Source of the DNA: Verrucomicrobiales bacterium
Lineage (GTDB): Bacteria > Verrucomicrobiota > Verrucomicrobiia > Verrucomicrobiales > DEV007
DNA length: 64,000 nt
Reading direction: 5' to 3'
Assembly (NCBI GenBank): GCA_012960505.1
Contig: DUBC01000052.1
Coordinates: forward strand, 1 to 64,000
Under the pieces are notes generated by a model that was not told the origin of the DNA, did no database searches, and worked only from the letters and a program-made list of their open reading frames with translations. The translations under genes and the position numbers were made by a program. Shown in pieces: positions 31,543 through 40,532 of the stretch. Position 1 is the stretch's first letter, and every line of letters starts with the position of its first letter.

Positions 31543-34500
31543 ATGCATTTTTCTCTGCTCACCAATTTAGGTGTTACTCTACTCGTTTCTTTAATTTTAG
31601 CCGTCACTGCAGATGCTGAGCGCGTCACTTTTAGTGAGATTCACTACGCCCCAAAAAATGATACGCCTGAATACATAGAACTGTTTAATAATTCCGGTTC
31701 CGCTGTTGATTTTGCATGCTGGGAATTTTCGGATGGTATCGATTATAAATTTCCTGACTTTTCAGCATCATCTCCACAGCAAACATTCATGTGCGCTTTC
31801 GAGCGCGTATTGGTCACAAATGTTGATGAGAAAACATTTCGCGAAAATTATACTGTGCCTGGGGATGTTAAAATATTCGGCCCCTATACTGGTTCTTTGA
31901 GTAATGCGGGAGAAGCACTAGAGCTGAGAGATAAAAATGGCGTTATGGTCTGCCGTGTCCGATATAATGATCGGGGCACCTGGCCTGTCGCTGCTGATGG
32001 TGCTGGTCATTCATTACGTTTAATCAACAAGTATCTTAGTTGCTCAAAATTTGATAATTGGGCTGCAAGTGCATCTCCAGGGGGCACACCAGGAGCGGCC
32101 CCGGCAGGTTCGGACGGGCAACGGTTTTCAAATCCATCAGTGGATCTTGCGACTTCTTTTCCGATCGTCAGTCTTGGAGATGAATGGAAATATGATGCTT
32201 CTGGAAATGATCTTGGTAGCGGATGGAAAGAATTAGAATATGACGATTCATCATGGTCCAGTGGTGGTGGAATTTTTGGTCGTGAAACCGCTTCACGTAT
32301 AGCAGCGATGCCTGAGCCCAAAATTCAAACTGTATGGAATGAGCGTATTTCAACTCATTATATGAGGAAACAATTCGACTGGGCTGGAGGAACAGGGGCT
32401 GCTTTCTTTTCAATGGATGCGATGCTCGATGACGGATTAATTATTTATTTGAACGGAAAAGAAATCGGACGCCATCGCATGCCCGCCGGAGATATTAACT
32501 ATCAGACCAATGCATCCTCAGTACCTTCATCACTTGAGGCAAAGATCGAAGAAAGAATCATTGAGTCCGACATAAGTGGTCTGCTGATAAATGGCGAAAA
32601 TACACTAGCTGTAGAGGTTCATAATAATAGTCGTAACAGCTCGGACCTTGTGTTTGGTCCGATCATTCGGGTTTCAGGTGCAGGGGGTGCCGCCATTATC
32701 AATGAAGTGAAGATCGGAGGTGATGGTGATGGATTTATCGAATTTTACAATTCCTCTGACAAAGAAATCAATTTACAGGGATATCATCTTAGTGATGATA
32801 TCAATAATCTTATAAAATTTACCATCGGCGCTAATGCTAACATCTTAGCCTCGGGCTTCACGACCATTGGCTTTAAAGAAGCGGGGTTCACCGTGGGTGG
32901 TGAAACAAAAATTTATCTGAGTTCTCCCGGTGCCGTTACAACACTTGATGCGTTCGAAGCTACGCTCGGAGCCGATGGTCGTTCCGTTGGAAGAAAACCA
33001 GCCGGTGGATCTGATTGGTTTGTTTTTTCTGACCCGACCCCAGGCGCTGCTAATATAGACAGCAGCGATCTTGCTGGATTGCTTGATCTCAATGAAATCC
33101 ACTTTGATGCAGAAGGAAATGTAGATTGGGTTGAACTTTCTGCTGACAGTGATGCCGCTATTCCGGTTGAAGGCCTATCTTTAACTTCCAAGATTGATTT
33201 TTCAGATGCGGTCCCTTTATCGGGTTCTGTTTCAGGTAATTCTCCAAAGAGCTGGAATGTTAATTTTTCACCCGAAAACACAAATGAAATTCAGGTCTAT
33301 CTAATCACTTCAGGAGGAACTGTGCTGGCAGCAAATTCTTTCCGTGTTCGCAATGGAGTAGAAAGCTATCAAAGTGATCCCCCCGGAAAGGAATGGTTTC
33401 GGGGTACTGGCAATACTAAAAATGCGGCTAACGAGCCAGTCAGGGAAACAAGTATCATCATCAACGAAATAATGTCCGATCCTCCAAGTGATGAAAGGAA
33501 CGGTGAATTTATAGAGCTGTATAATAGGGGCAATAAGGCCGTTGATCTTAGTGGTTGGGAATTTGTTGAGGGCATTAGTTTTACTTTCCCGGCCGGTACA
33601 AGCATTGAGTCTGGAGCTCATTTGGTAGTCGCTGCTAACAAAAATTGGATCAAATCTAATTACGGAGATGTTCCAGTAATAGGAAACTATGAAAACAACT
33701 TGGCGAATGAAGGTGAACTTCTGAGGCTCGAGGACAGTGACGGAAATTTGGCTGATGAAGTGAACTACAAGGTTGGTGGAGATTGGCCACAATGGACAAA
33801 TGGTGATGGAAGTAGTATGGAGCTCATTCATCCGTTTGCCGATAATGATCTTCCTAGTTCTTGGAAAGATAGTGATGAAAGTCAGAAAACAAGTTTTGAG
33901 AAATACAGCTTCACGGGCATCTATCACCACCTTTCGGTTCCGCGTCTGGATAAAGAATTGTGGATCCATCTTGTCGGAGACGCACATGTTGTTCTTAAAG
34001 ATATTGAGCTTCTCAGAGGGGGGCAGGATATCATGCAAAATGCCGCCAAACGTACAACGAGCGGTCGAGGTGAGACTGGATGGTTGACTCAGGGAACGCA
34101 TCATGCCAGTTATTTTGAAAATGGTGAATTTCACCTGATTTCTGACGGACACGGTGACAATCGCGCAAACAAAGCTGAAATTCAGGTTAATGCATTAACA
34201 CGTAATGATGAGCTGACTCTTAAGTTCAAAGCCCGTTGGGTTAAGGGCAAGCCCAGAGTCATTTTCAAAACATTCGAAGACAGCTTTGTTTCTACTTATA
34301 GATTGCCTATCCCTAATGATCTTGGCAGTCCCGGTAAAGCAAATGGATCATTGCGTTCTTCGGCGCCGCCTGCCTTAGGCCATTTATCACACAGTCCAGC
34401 AGTCCCTACTAGCAAGGAGCCTGTTACCGTTTCTGCTAAGATATCCGGAGCAGCAGATTCTGTTAAACTCATGTATCGTCAGGACTCAGCAACAAATGAC

Positions 34501-37500
34501 AGGGACTGGAAATCTCTCACCATGAATGACAATGGTTCGGGTGCGGACTCTCGTGCTGGTGATGGAACATGGTCTGCACAAATTTTAGATCAGGGCATCG
34601 ATAATCGAATCGTACAGTTCTATGTCCTTGCAAAAAATGGTGATCAAGAAGTTACTCTTCCTGCCCGTGCTCCGGAAATACCAGCAATGTATGTTGTCGA
34701 TGATGCCGAAATTGATACTGATGTGACGAGCTACCGAGTAGTGGTTTCTGCTTATGACCTTCGCTCTATGACGAGTGGAAGCAGCGCAGCCTGGGAATGG
34801 AAATTTCCAAATCTATCTAATCATTATAAAAAGATGACCCTCATCGTTGATGAAAAAGAAATATTTTATAATTGTGAAATCCGGTCCTCGGGTAGTCCCT
34901 GGCATGCTGGAAGCCGATCCAGTTTTAGGCAGCGCGGCAAATTTAAATTGCCTCTAGACAAACGACTCCGCGGTCTTTCAAAATTTGCGTGGGATAATAC
35001 CCCAGCAGCAGAAGGTGCGGCTAACATATTTAATAACAAAGTCCCAAGATACATGCTTTACCTGATGGGGCATGAAGTGAACGAAAACGAATTTGCTTCA
35101 ATGATTGAAAATGGAGGAACACCAAAACACTCGGTCGAATTCTTTGAGCCTGTTGGTAATGATTTTCTGGAGAGAAACTTTGGGGATAACGGTCCGCAAG
35201 GAGAACTTTACCGGCAAGATGATATATTTTTCTTTGATGATAATTACAGCAAAGACCAAATCACTAATCGTTACTGGTGGTACGCTGGTGATGACTGGCC
35301 GGGTCCAGGAAGATATCACAGCCAGTGGCTAAAGCGTTCGAGGGAAACAGATTATGATTACACAGCTTTAATCAACCTACTTAAAACAGTAAAGAACTCC
35401 AACGGATACACTGAAGAGGAAATAAATCGCCTCGTTGACGCGAGAAGAATATGCATGATGGCTGCTGTGAGAGGCTACATCGGGGACTGGGATTCTTTCA
35501 CATTGCGGCGACCCAAGAACAGTTTCTTTTACAGGGGCCCGGGAGATGGAAAATTTCATTTCTTCTTCCATGACTCTGACTTGGCTTTTCAAAATACTGG
35601 AGAAATGATTTTCAGTGGGGGAAATGAATTCTCAGCTTGGCTTCGAAAGCCCTATAACCGGCGTATTTTCCGATACTATCTAACAGAAATTTTAGATAAA
35701 TTTCAGGCCAATGGGTCACGTGTAGATGCTTGGTTCGACTGTGAACAGGCAGTTTCCAGCACCTATAATCCGAATCAGAACAAATATATCGGTTGGGACA
35801 GTGGCAGGCGCAATCGTATTTTGAGCGAACTTTCAAATGGGCATACCAAAAAACTGGATGTCGGCCCAATTGCCAATACAGCTAATGATACTATAACAAT
35901 TACCGGAGAAGCTGGATATAGGGTCTGGGAGGTTGCTGTAGAAAACCACTCCGAAGGTCAATTCAGCTGGATCGATGAAACAACTTGGAAAATTGAAGGG
36001 GTTTCCTTAAGTAACGGATCAAACTCATTCCGAGTCATCGCATTGGATGATGATGGCAAGCCTGCACATGGAGAAGAAACAGATACCTTTACGGTAAACA
36101 AAACCAATAATGCAGCTCCGCACATAGTCCTTGATTTGAATCCTGGTTCTGGAAACGTCGAGCTGTCCAGGACTCTTGTCCTTGATGCGAGTGAAAGTTA
36201 CGATCCAGAAGGTGATGCCCTATCATTTGTCTGGAACGCTTCGTCAGAAAGTGTCGTTTTAACAACGGATGGCCCGACCGCAGTTATCAGTTTTGCTACT
36301 CCTGGACTCTATGAAATATCATTAGCGGTAACAGATCAGAAAGACAAAAAATCCACAATTTCAAAAGAAATATCTGTTTTTGGGCCTAAGGGATTTTCAG
36401 CATTCAATGATGTTTGGATTGCTCCATGGATCCAAGAACATGACATGGAGCAAAAGGATAATTACTCGCCTGGGGCCTGGTGGTCTCTCAGTGAATCACT
36501 AGGAAAATTAGTTATTCAATTGCCGGATGATAAGTCCTACCCGTTAGGATTACCCCCCGGCATTGCTGACTCAAAGAGTTACATCCAGTTAGATCATACT
36601 TGGCAATATAGCGATGCAAATATCGACTATATGTCCGAATTTGCGAAAGTGGACTTTGACGATTCGTCCTGGAAAACAGGCAGGGGTATGTTTGGAAAAG
36701 ATTCTGGAACCATACCCGAGCCAGGTATAAATACTCCACTTCAGAGCAATGCAGCAGAGAACTTGGTAAGTTATTACTTTAGAACAGAATTTGAATTCTC
36801 TGATGATCCGGTCGGGGCAAAAATTGATCTCCGCGCTGTCATAGATGATGGAGCTAGATTTTGGCTCAATGACATTGAAATTGATCGCGTCCGGTTACCC
36901 AATGGTCAGATAGAACATGGTACCGGAGCAAGTAGTAATACTGCCTCGAGAGATGAAAAACAATCACGGCAAGTAGGTATTTATGATGGTACCGGATCCT
37001 TAGTGAATGGAAAAAATATACTAGCCGTTGATCTTCATAACCGTAACGCTAGAAGCTCTGACTATCTGTTTGCCGCAGAACTTGATATCACAGCTCAGCC
37101 AATCACCGAAGGCGGTAATCTGGATGGAACTACACACCCCTGGCTTAAACGAGATCTGCCAACTCGTTCCGATTGGGCATTACAAACTGATCTCGAGCTA
37201 TGGAATCTCCAATTTGATGAATTTATGGCTGGGCTAATGATCGAAGTAGATGAATCCGCAAAGCGTTCACGTTATGCATTTGGTTATAAAGACGGAAGAC
37301 GTTTAGCAATCACTAAAATTACCTCTTCTGGGAGTGCTGGAACAGTACATAGTGTTCCATTTTCTTCATCTGATGATGTTGTTATAAGAATACGCCGCGC
37401 AGAAAATCGGCTCTTTTTTGAAAGATCTCCCGAGTCTGGGATTTGGGAAATTATTCATCATCTTGATCTTCAGCCTAATTGGGAATCGGTACATGGTGGA

Positions 37501-38469
37501 ATATTCACAAGCACAGAAGCCGCGCGCAGCTTGAAGGTTAGCTTTGACTATATGATGCTGGTTTCTCCAGAAGAATCTTCACCTTCTAGTGGAGATATAA
37601 TTGTTTCAGAAGCGATGTATAACCCCTTAGAGGGTTCTGATTATGAATTTATTGAACTTTATAATGCGGGGCAAAATTCTGTCGATCTAACTGGTTTTTC
37701 ACTCCCTCAAGGTAACCCTGTTAATGAATTTATCTTCCCTGAAAGATCGATAGCTGCTGGTGAATATCTTCTAATTGTAGCTAATCGTGAATCTTTTTTA
37801 AGTAAGTATGGTCAGCAGATTAATGCCCAGATAGTGGGGAATTGGTCTGGTGGTAAGTTAAATAATAATGGCGAAGAGATTATGCTTTTGGATAGAGATG
37901 GAAATCTTGTCACAAGCTTCATCTATAACAATAATGATCCTTGGCCCACTCAGCCTGATGAAGATGGTTATTCTCTTGTCTTATTAAATCCATTATTGGG
38001 AAATACAAGCGATGGCTCTCTGTGGACATCAAGTGCTGCAATTGGTGGATCACCAGGAAAGGCTGAAACAATAAACGAAGCATTTGCTTCTTGGATGGAG
38101 GCTCGAGAAGAAACTAATCCATTAGATATTAAGGGGGGTGATTTACTCAATAATCTTCTTACTTATGCTTTTGGAATTGATCTCATTAATGAAAAAACCC
38201 AAAGCGGAATTCCTTCCTTAGACATAGTGGAATTAGAAGGGAAACAGTACTTCGCCCTTGAGTATCGGGAAAGAAAAGATGCACTAGGTATGGAGTTTAT
38301 CATTGAAACGAGTAATGATTTAATCACTTGGTCACAGGATCAGAACAGTGCGGTCGAAATTTCTAGAGCTGCGGATGGTGATGGTGCTGAACGAATTATT
38401 TTACGCTCCAAGGATGCTATAAATAATACAGATTTAGGGTTTTTGCGGGTGCGTGTCCTTTCGCCCTAA
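31543..38469 (+). CDS. Giant secreted CotH-like/lamin-tail domain protein
   Basis: This 2308-aa protein has a signal peptide (~1-26). Lamin-tail domains begin near 27 (VTFSEIHYAP), ~384 (AAIINEVKIGG), ~637 (IIINEIMSDPPSDE) and ~2019 (IIVSEAMYNP). Two jelly-roll modules of the DDSSW...DDG...LNxxEI type lie at ~208-380 and ~1685-1855. A divergent CotH kinase-like domain spans about 1063-1390, with HDSDLAF near 1344 at the metal-binding site. A PKD-like Ig domain lies at ~1526-1610. The C-terminus has the ETSNDLITW beta module. It is probably a surface- or matrix-bound modifying enzyme. It is clearly related in layout to the 1663-aa CotH protein at 12325 but much longer. Confidence 0.85.
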   Translation: MHFSLLTNLGVTLLVSLILAVTADAERVTFSEIHYAPKNDTPEYIELFNNSGSAVDFACWEFSDGIDYKFPDFSASSPQQTFMCAFERVLVTNVDEKTFRENYTVPGDVKIFGPYTGSLSNAGEALELRDKNGVMVCRVRYNDRGTWPVAADGAGHSLRLINKYLSCSKFDNWAASASPGGTPGAAPAGSDGQRFSNPSVDLATSFPIVSLGDEWKYDASGNDLGSGWKELEYDDSSWSSGGGIFGRETASRIAAMPEPKIQTVWNERISTHYMRKQFDWAGGTGAAFFSMDAMLDDGLIIYLNGKEIGRHRMPAGDINYQTNASSVPSSLEAKIEERIIESDISGLLINGENTLAVEVHNNSRNSSDLVFGPIIRVSGAGGAAIINEVKIGGDGDGFIEFYNSSDKEINLQGYHLSDDINNLIKFTIGANANILASGFTTIGFKEAGFTVGGETKIYLSSPGAVTTLDAFEATLGADGRSVGRKPAGGSDWFVFSDPTPGAANIDSSDLAGLLDLNEIHFDAEGNVDWVELSADSDAAIPVEGLSLTSKIDFSDAVPLSGSVSGNSPKSWNVNFSPENTNEIQVYLITSGGTVLAANSFRVRNGVESYQSDPPGKEWFRGTGNTKNAANEPVRETSIIINEIMSDPPSDERNGEFIELYNRGNKAVDLSGWEFVEGISFTFPAGTSIESGAHLVVAANKNWIKSNYGDVPVIGNYENNLANEGELLRLEDSDGNLADEVNYKVGGDWPQWTNGDGSSMELIHPFADNDLPSSWKDSDESQKTSFEKYSFTGIYHHLSVPRLDKELWIHLVGDAHVVLKDIELLRGGQDIMQNAAKRTTSGRGETGWLTQGTHHASYFENGEFHLISDGHGDNRANKAEIQVNALTRNDELTLKFKARWVKGKPRVIFKTFEDSFVSTYRLPIPNDLGSPGKANGSLRSSAPPALGHLSHSPAVPTSKEPVTVSAKISGAADSVKLMYRQDSATNDRDWKSLTMNDNGSGADSRAGDGTWSAQILDQGIDNRIVQFYVLAKNGDQEVTLPARAPEIPAMYVVDDAEIDTDVTSYRVVVSAYDLRSMTSGSSAAWEWKFPNLSNHYKKMTLIVDEKEIFYNCEIRSSGSPWHAGSRSSFRQRGKFKLPLDKRLRGLSKFAWDNTPAAEGAANIFNNKVPRYMLYLMGHEVNENEFASMIENGGTPKHSVEFFEPVGNDFLERNFGDNGPQGELYRQDDIFFFDDNYSKDQITNRYWWYAGDDWPGPGRYHSQWLKRSRETDYDYTALINLLKTVKNSNGYTEEEINRLVDARRICMMAAVRGYIGDWDSFTLRRPKNSFFYRGPGDGKFHFFFHDSDLAFQNTGEMIFSGGNEFSAWLRKPYNRRIFRYYLTEILDKFQANGSRVDAWFDCEQAVSSTYNPNQNKYIGWDSGRRNRILSELSNGHTKKLDVGPIANTANDTITITGEAGYRVWEVAVENHSEGQFSWIDETTWKIEGVSLSNGSNSFRVIALDDDGKPAHGEETDTFTVNKTNNAAPHIVLDLNPGSGNVELSRTLVLDASESYDPEGDALSFVWNASSESVVLTTDGPTAVISFATPGLYEISLAVTDQKDKKSTISKEISVFGPKGFSAFNDVWIAPWIQEHDMEQKDNYSPGAWWSLSESLGKLVIQLPDDKSYPLGLPPGIADSKSYIQLDHTWQYSDANIDYMSEFAKVDFDDSSWKTGRGMFGKDSGTIPEPGINTPLQSNAAENLVSYYFRTEFEFSDDPVGAKIDLRAVIDDGARFWLNDIEIDRVRLPNGQIEHGTGASSNTASRDEKQSRQVGIYDGTGSLVNGKNILAVDLHNRNARSSDYLFAAELDITAQPITEGGNLDGTTHPWLKRDLPTRSDWALQTDLELWNLQFDEFMAGLMIEVDESAKRSRYAFGYKDGRRLAITKITSSGSAGTVHSVPFSSSDDVVIRIRRAENRLFFERSPESGIWEIIHHLDLQPNWESVHGGIFTSTEAARSLKVSFDYMMLVSPEESSPSSGDIIVSEAMYNPLEGSDYEFIELYNAGQNSVDLTGFSLPQGNPVNEFIFPERSIAAGEYLLIVANRESFLSKYGQQINAQIVGNWSGGKLNNNGEEIMLLDRDGNLVTSFIYNNNDPWPTQPDEDGYSLVLLNPLLGNTSDGSLWTSSAAIGGSPGKAETINEAFASWMEAREETNPLDIKGGDLLNNLLTYAFGIDLINEKTQSGIPSLDIVELEGKQYFALEYRERKDALGMEFIIETSNDLITWSQDQNSAVEISRAADGDGAERIILRSKDAINNTDLGFLRVRVLSP

Positions 38470-39761: not shown

Positions 39762-40532
39762 ATGATAATAGCCAGAGGACTCGTTGCTTTATTTCTTATT
39801 CCACTAGTTGGTCTTCTCCATTTTTTATTAGCTACACAGTTTGAGATTTACGAGCACAGACCCATTTGGGGTGCTGTTGTAGTATTAGCTTCATTGATAG
39901 TTCTTGGTAGATTATTAATGAGAGCTACCAACAATCACAAAACACTCACTGTGCTAAATTTGTTGGGCTGGGTTCTAGCACTGGCCCTATTTTGGTGGAT
40001 TGAAGTTTTCACACACTACCCCCCACTTAAAGTAAATCACAAATTGGGTCAGAAAATTAACTGGTCCAACGGAGAAAATCTCCAAGACAGTCAAGGGAAT
40101 TCATTCAATATAGATTCCCAACTCAATAAAACAAATCAAACGCTATTGGTTTTTTATAGAGGGCATTGGTGACCCTATTGTGTTGCTGAGCTCGTGAAGC
40201 TAGAAAACAAAATAGACCAACTCAAGTCAATGGATGTACAGGTGGTTGCTATTTCAAAAAGCGATCCACAGGATTCTCAAAAAACAAAAAATAAAACAAA
40301 GGGATTCTTTACCTTCGTTTCTGATCCCAGTGGATCTTTTATTAATAGTCTTGGATTATTAGATAAGGGGGGAAATCCTTTTACCGGCGACGACTCTGCA
40401 CGAATTAGTAAAATGTTAGTTAATAAAGAAAAGAAGATATTGTGGGTTAGATTCACTGAAAACAATAGAGTTAGAATTAAATCAAGTAACCTAATTTCTG
40501 AATTAATCGAAGGGATAAATAAATATAAATAA
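39762..40532 (+). CDS. Probable selenoprotein: membrane-anchored redoxin (AhpC/TSA-like) with UxxC active site
   Basis: A single 256-residue product is obtained if the in-frame TGA at 40170-40172 is read as selenocysteine (U137). Residues 1-~95 hold three TM segments. A linker leads to a thioredoxin-fold redoxin domain (~110-256) with LLVFYRGHW-U-PYCVAELVKL. Peroxiredoxin-like family members have FYRG-x-W-C-P-x-C here, so TGA replaces exactly the redox Cys, and the second Cys is C140. The downstream frame continues the fold (VVAISKSDPQD, FTFVSDPSGSFI) without another break. A SECIS-like hairpin follows the TGA. Terminating at the TGA would give a 136-aa membrane stub. The alternative explanation, a recent nonsense mutation or sequencing error, is less likely but not excluded. 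Confidence 0.8.
40175..40215 (+). promoter_or_regulatory. SECIS-like hairpin directly after the in-frame TGA
   Basis: The lower stem pairs 40175-40184 (CTATTGTGTT) with 40206-40215 (AACAAAATAG): nine pairs and one G-A mismatch. A 5-nt bulge on the 3' side separates it from an upper GCT/AGC stem, closed by a 10-nt loop that starts with G (40188-40197). The apical loop begins 15 nt after the TGA, within the distance usual for bacterial SECIS elements. Folding was done by eye, without energy calculation. Confidence 0.55.

Follow-up and report, generated by a model that had tools for sequence, protein, structure and literature searches.

The locus

The window analysed here is a stretch of 64,000 nucleotides from a Verrucomicrobiales bacterium (contig DUBC01000052.1, positions 1 to 64,000), whose draft genome comprises 4.01 Mb in 56 contigs and is 94% complete. 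At 39762-40532 it holds one reading frame, running from an ATG at 39762 to a TAA at 40530-40532 (256 codons plus the stop), with a TGA at 40170-40172 as its sole interruption. This TGA lies in the context RGHW-TGA-PYC and, read as selenocysteine (Sec), gives the motif W-U-P-Y-C. Mechanical open reading frame (ORF) finding cuts the frame into pieces of 136 and 112 residues. A sequence-only reading made earlier had described a single frame broken only by this TGA and had predicted that gene callers would split the gene, and both statements hold. The features of the locus, with the evidence for each, are as follows.

39762..40532, + strand: probable coding sequence of a membrane-anchored selenoprotein of 256 residues with Sec137 counted, ending in TAA (one frame with one TGA; homologues of equal length and layout)
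39765..39842, + strand: predicted transmembrane (TM) helix 1, residues 2-27 (AlphaFold model, pLDDT 95-97)
39864..39923, + strand: predicted TM helix 2, residues 35-54 (AlphaFold model)
39936..40010, + strand: predicted TM helix 3, residues 59-83; the preceding TM2-TM3 loop is K/R-rich and probably cytoplasmic (AlphaFold model; loop charge counts)
40080..40439, + strand: AhpC/TSA (redoxin) domain, residues 107-226 (PF00578; best Foldseek match Bcp4, 3hjp)
40170..40172, + strand: TGA codon of putative selenocysteine 137, the U of UxxC (28 full-length members with TGA and one with Cys; Sec machinery in the genome)
40175..40215, + strand: SECIS-like hairpin; its core, 40188-40202, is conserved, and CGUGA at 40193-40197 forms the apical loop (fold; pair counts; synonymous-recoding test)
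40179..40181, + strand: Cys140 codon TGT, the C of UxxC (invariant in 29 of 29; profile alignment with the Bcp peroxidatic Cys and the second Cys of the ResA CxxC)
40401..40403, + strand: Arg214, corresponding in position to the conserved peroxiredoxin Arg and probably catalytic (at least 90% conserved; aligned to the R of KRAVF in 2cx3)

The gene order rnc, anchored selenoprotein gene, mnmG, DUF6580, pdhA, pdhB is kept within the genus and partly in two more genera, and outside these the gene is found in varied contexts. Across the family neighbourhoods we found no conserved operon partner that would name a substrate or electron donor beyond this local synteny. Upstream of rnc, at 31543-38469, the window encodes a protein of 2308 aa, conserved in the genus, that has CotH and PKD domains and four Lamin Tail Domains.

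A redoxin domain behind three predicted membrane helices

Two Pfam models match across the TGA, PF00578 with the TGA read as Cys (5.9e-17, 62.2 bits against a gathering score of 26) and PF08534, Redoxin (1.1e-14, 54.9 bits against 26.6), and both are matched by all 29 family members. Foldseek matches are peroxiredoxins, Bcp4 (3hjp) being first with an E value of 3.4e-10. The protein thus combines Pfam scores above gathering with a peroxiredoxin fold, on which we base its placement in the AhpC/TSA-redoxin superfamily. The earlier suggestion of an AhpC/TSA-like redoxin that keeps its fold past the TGA and retains C140 is borne out by the PF00578 match and by the invariance of this Cys.

AlphaFold, run on the family alignment, returned a model with mean pLDDT 95.3 and pTM 0.89, in which three N-terminal helices, also seen as transmembrane segments in the sequence-only reading, precede a redoxin domain that starts after residue 100. 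A Pfam search with residues 1-97 gave zero matches, and in a viral fold library the one clear hit was an ordinary peroxiredoxin, with none to the anchor. Averaged over the 29 members, the TM2-TM3 loop carries 4.3 K+R residues, as against 1.4 in the TM1-TM2 loop. Under the positive-inside rule this bias, together with the predicted model, indicates that the redoxin domain probably faces the periplasm.

Distribution of the family and selection on it

Within 289 genomes of the same order we identified 28 full-length members, that of the window included, with TGA at the identical codon, spread over nine genera and three families, a recurrence well outside chance; relatives are 22-65% identical. 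Two further TGA forms come from another order of the same class. The sole full-length member with Cys in place of Sec is L033, so that at the redox-Cys position the homologues hold UGA or Cys, one of the marks by which a selenoprotein is recognized. The member genomes are draft assemblies. With the TGA read as Cys, 11 alignment columns are invariant, including F131, R133, G134, W136, C/U137, P138 and C140, and the family has a C-terminal signature of its own, ENxRVRP. Scanning GTDB contigs with the single protein returned only two distant soluble Cys homologues because that scan needs exact peptide words.

A redoxin-domain tree of 55 rows unites the anchored forms in one supported group (96/93), and most soluble Cys relatives fall in a separate one. 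L033 is nested inside the anchored group, which points to its origin by a change from Sec to Cys. On either side of the TGA the anchored family has dN/dS values of about 0.05-0.28, which indicate purifying selection; frequent lesions in the homologues, named earlier as an outcome that would speak for a pseudogene, are absent from it.

Several relatives depart from the common layout. L035, L036 and L040, of genus g11, have 50-70 poorly conserved residues inserted after the third helix, ahead of the redoxin domain. In one genome a second Sec paralogue, a soluble and apparently secreted redoxin with TGA in SADW-U-PFC (L109, G148:C448, + strand), occurs beside the anchored form. A soluble Cys homologue (L058, G433:C86, - strand) has a TAG just after CPFCKK, possibly a lesion or an assembly error.

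A conserved hairpin downstream of the TGA

The sequence-only reading had placed a SECIS-like hairpin 3 nt past the TGA. The segment 40170-40220 does fold, with an energy of -10.4 kcal/mol (z -2.5 relative to dinucleotide-shuffled sequences), and its outermost pair lies at 40175, two to three bases past the TGA. Among the TGA forms the hairpin takes two shapes. In subgroup A (16 sequences) it reads GAGCU-loop-AGCUC or near it, and the 12 sequences of subgroup B have CUGCAA-GGU-UUGCAG, displaced three bases downstream; the encoded residues differ along with this shift (ELVKL versus ELQGLQ). The apical loop is GGU in subgroup B and several members of A and CGUGA in the window, giving a stem-loop immediately 3' of the UGA with a G-bearing apical loop, as bacterial Sec insertion would require. 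Against this, the window's copy of the hairpin is missing a core pair and has CGUGA in place of a GGU loop.

Base pairing is maintained in 94 of 112 cells in subgroup A (83.9%) and in all 72 in subgroup B (100%), compared with 7-49% at slid control positions. Pairs in which both bases changed number three in A and one in B, and there are compensatory synonymous changes of Leu and Gln codons (CTG/CAG to TTG/CAA). When codons were recoded synonymously with each protein kept, 72.5 +/- 3.6 paired cells were expected in A against the 94 observed (z 6.0), and 47.9 +/- 3.6 in B against the 72 observed (z 6.7). The hairpin is conserved beyond what the protein requires. A sliding fold test was strongest just past the TGA (Stouffer -5.9 to -6.4) and gave about -3.0 to +1.4 elsewhere, excepting a test segment that still overlapped the hairpin. 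The signal is absent from the soluble Cys homologues (Stouffer -1.2, versus -6.4 in the TGA forms), and in L033, the anchored Cys form, the hairpin is lost (z +0.9).

Selenocysteine machinery of the genome

A search of the same genome for selA, selB, selD and tRNA-Sec had been proposed earlier as a check, and all four are present, the complete set that we looked for in a selenoprotein-making genome. SelB scores 324.6 bits; tRNA-Sec, with anticodon TCA (UCA), scores 61.2 bits, above the Rfam cut-off; selA (474 bits) lies 1.5 kb downstream of tRNA-Sec; and selD itself has the classic active site CGUAAK, with U encoded by TGA. Every genome of the order with the TGA form has selA, as compared with 93 of 289 genomes overall. 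The hypergeometric probability is 1.7e-16 for 29 of 29, a value that ignores kinship and counts as its 29th genome (G218) a partial match whose TGA position is unchecked.

The same genome contains three more AhpC/TSA-family frames with TGA at redox positions. One is an AhpC-like peroxiredoxin in which TGA stands for the peroxidatic residue, DFTFVUPSE (L144, G000:C14:19898-20296, - strand). Another frame resembles PrxQ, seems to carry a signal peptide and has its TGA where the peroxidatic residue belongs, ANTGGUTAQ (L145, G000:C36:922-1290, - strand). The last is TlpA/ResA-like, with UGPC (TGA) and a long Glu run near its C-terminus (L146, G000:C13:56658-56912, + strand).

Relation to known redoxins and selenoproteins

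The anchored family shares features with two groups of redoxins. In profile alignments C140 falls on the Bcp peroxidatic Cys, R214 coincides with the peroxiredoxin Arg (that of 2cx3), and U137/C140 superimpose exactly on the CxxC of ResA (3c71, 3.8e-15); the residues so matched are the catalytic ones in Bcp and ResA. Like Bcp/PrxQ, the family has the peroxiredoxin fold (3hjp, 5epf), Cys140 at the peroxidatic position and a retained Arg214. It differs in its TM anchor, Bcp/PrxQ peroxiredoxins being soluble, and in its active site, which is RxxxUxxC rather than PxxxTxxC: R133, invariant in 29 members, replaces the Pro and U137 the Thr of the strict motif. ResA/TlpA proteins are membrane-anchored, extracytoplasmic redoxins whose CxxC occupies the corresponding position. 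A single TM segment anchors ResA, whereas here there are three helices, and Sec replaces the first Cys. The ResA match also stops at about residue 199, and the Bcp match extends to the C-terminus.

The window protein stays below the cut-off of every NCBIfam model, scoring 19.3 against 170 for ResA and 16 against 230 for TlpA. The best match is the SelL-related redox protein model NF040769, at 35.5 bits against a cut-off of 120, covering only residues 107-200 and falling short of membership; all 29 members match this model at E 0.001.

UxxC selenoproteins of the Prx-like thiol:disulfide oxidoreductase type are already known (PMC13188914 Table 1; PMC2398784; PMC1088965). The Prx-like selenoproteins (PF00578, UxxC/UxxU; Prx-like 1 of the GOS survey) resemble the anchored family in the AhpC/TSA fold, the UxxC and the bacterial UGA with SECIS, and the window protein, a PF00578 domain with UxxC, has their defining features. 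The survey passages available to us make no mention of a membrane anchor, and the conserved three-helix N-terminus and ENxRVRP set the present family apart by description only; the two may overlap. Similarly, a Redoxin family selenoprotein listed in PMC13188914 and PMC9312934 (PF08534, UxxC) shares the Pfam domain, found in 29 of 29 members, and the motif; an anchor is not described in the parts of those papers at hand, and it too is set apart by description only. In the portions of the open-licence literature searched we found no membrane-anchored redoxin selenoprotein. The catalytic kind is known, but the subfamily with the anchor looks undescribed, as do its distribution and its SECIS series, the published representatives (WP_010940744.1 for the Prx-like group) having been compared by their partial descriptions only.

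Discussion

We consider it likely that the locus is an intact gene for a membrane-anchored, periplasm-facing UxxC selenoprotein redoxin, whose Sec137-Cys140 couple would act on peroxide or disulfide. The sequence-only reading had proposed a membrane selenoprotein peroxidase or reductase. The shared TGA, the Sec machinery, the hairpin and the model support the first part, a membrane selenoprotein, and the activity itself is something that we infer from the protein's anatomy.

A dead gene, in which mutation or sequencing error turned a Cys codon into TGA, might seem natural, as TGA is one base from TGT and TGC and gene callers would split the gene. An error is ruled out because independent genomes have the same TGA. 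The pseudogene is refuted by the TGA shared among 28 members and by purifying selection that continues downstream of it, and the Sec machinery and conserved hairpin also count against it; we regard this reading as extremely improbable. An in-frame TGA is by itself no proof of Sec, and the codon could be read otherwise, by stop readthrough or under a reassigned code. However, TGA is the ordinary stop of 10 of the 31 long ORFs of the window, so we reject an altered genetic code. The tRNA-Sec with its TCA anticodon, the placement of the TGA where relatives carry the redox Cys and the three further frames with TGA at redox positions also argue against other readings of UGA, which we consider very improbable.

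The alternative of greater weight concerns function. The same selenoprotein could be a ResA/TlpA-like thiol-disulfide reductase of periplasmic proteins, for instance apocytochromes or other redoxins, without action on peroxides. The exact superposition of U137/C140 on the ResA CxxC is consistent with this, as is the match of 21 of the 29 members to the ResA model at E 0.001, and UxxC is called a thioredoxin-type motif in the Sargasso paper, in the part on Prx-like selenoproteins (PMC1088965). Counter to this, Bcp/PrxQ peroxiredoxins are the top matches in both the profile and the fold searches, the peroxiredoxin Arg position is kept, and the gene has no conserved neighbour of any kind beyond local synteny. 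We view a pure reductase as a real contender, with a chance somewhat short of even.

For the UxxC redoxin acting on peroxide or disulfide, we envisage the following mechanism. The ribosome would read the UGA as Sec by means of SelB, tRNA-Sec and the downstream hairpin, and the three helices, as predicted by the model and the charge bias, would anchor the peroxiredoxin-fold domain on the periplasmic side. Sec137, located where the domain's first helix starts, would most likely be the nucleophile that attacks the substrate on the outer side of the membrane, Cys140, one turn further on, may resolve this Sec as a selenenylsulfide, and Arg214 may help to polarise the substrate. A periplasmic thiol donor would then reset the couple. 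When selenium is short, translation would presumably stop at the UGA and yield no more than a 136-residue product made up of the anchor and a truncated domain.

With this family the bacterial selenoproteome would gain a UxxC enzyme that is membrane-anchored and probably periplasmic. Given that ordinary gene callers split or truncate the gene, annotations of the phylum are likely to lack an entire subfamily of membrane redox enzymes. The 28 Sec forms and the one nested, hairpin-less Cys form also provide a clean natural series on how a SECIS moves with protein sequence. More speculatively, and on balance rather doubtfully, the protein may be a Sec redoxin that three helices hold to the periplasmic surface of the inner membrane and that reduces lipid or periplasmic hydroperoxides. 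If so, selenium-using bacteria of this phylum would possess a counterpart of the membrane-protecting selenoperoxidases.
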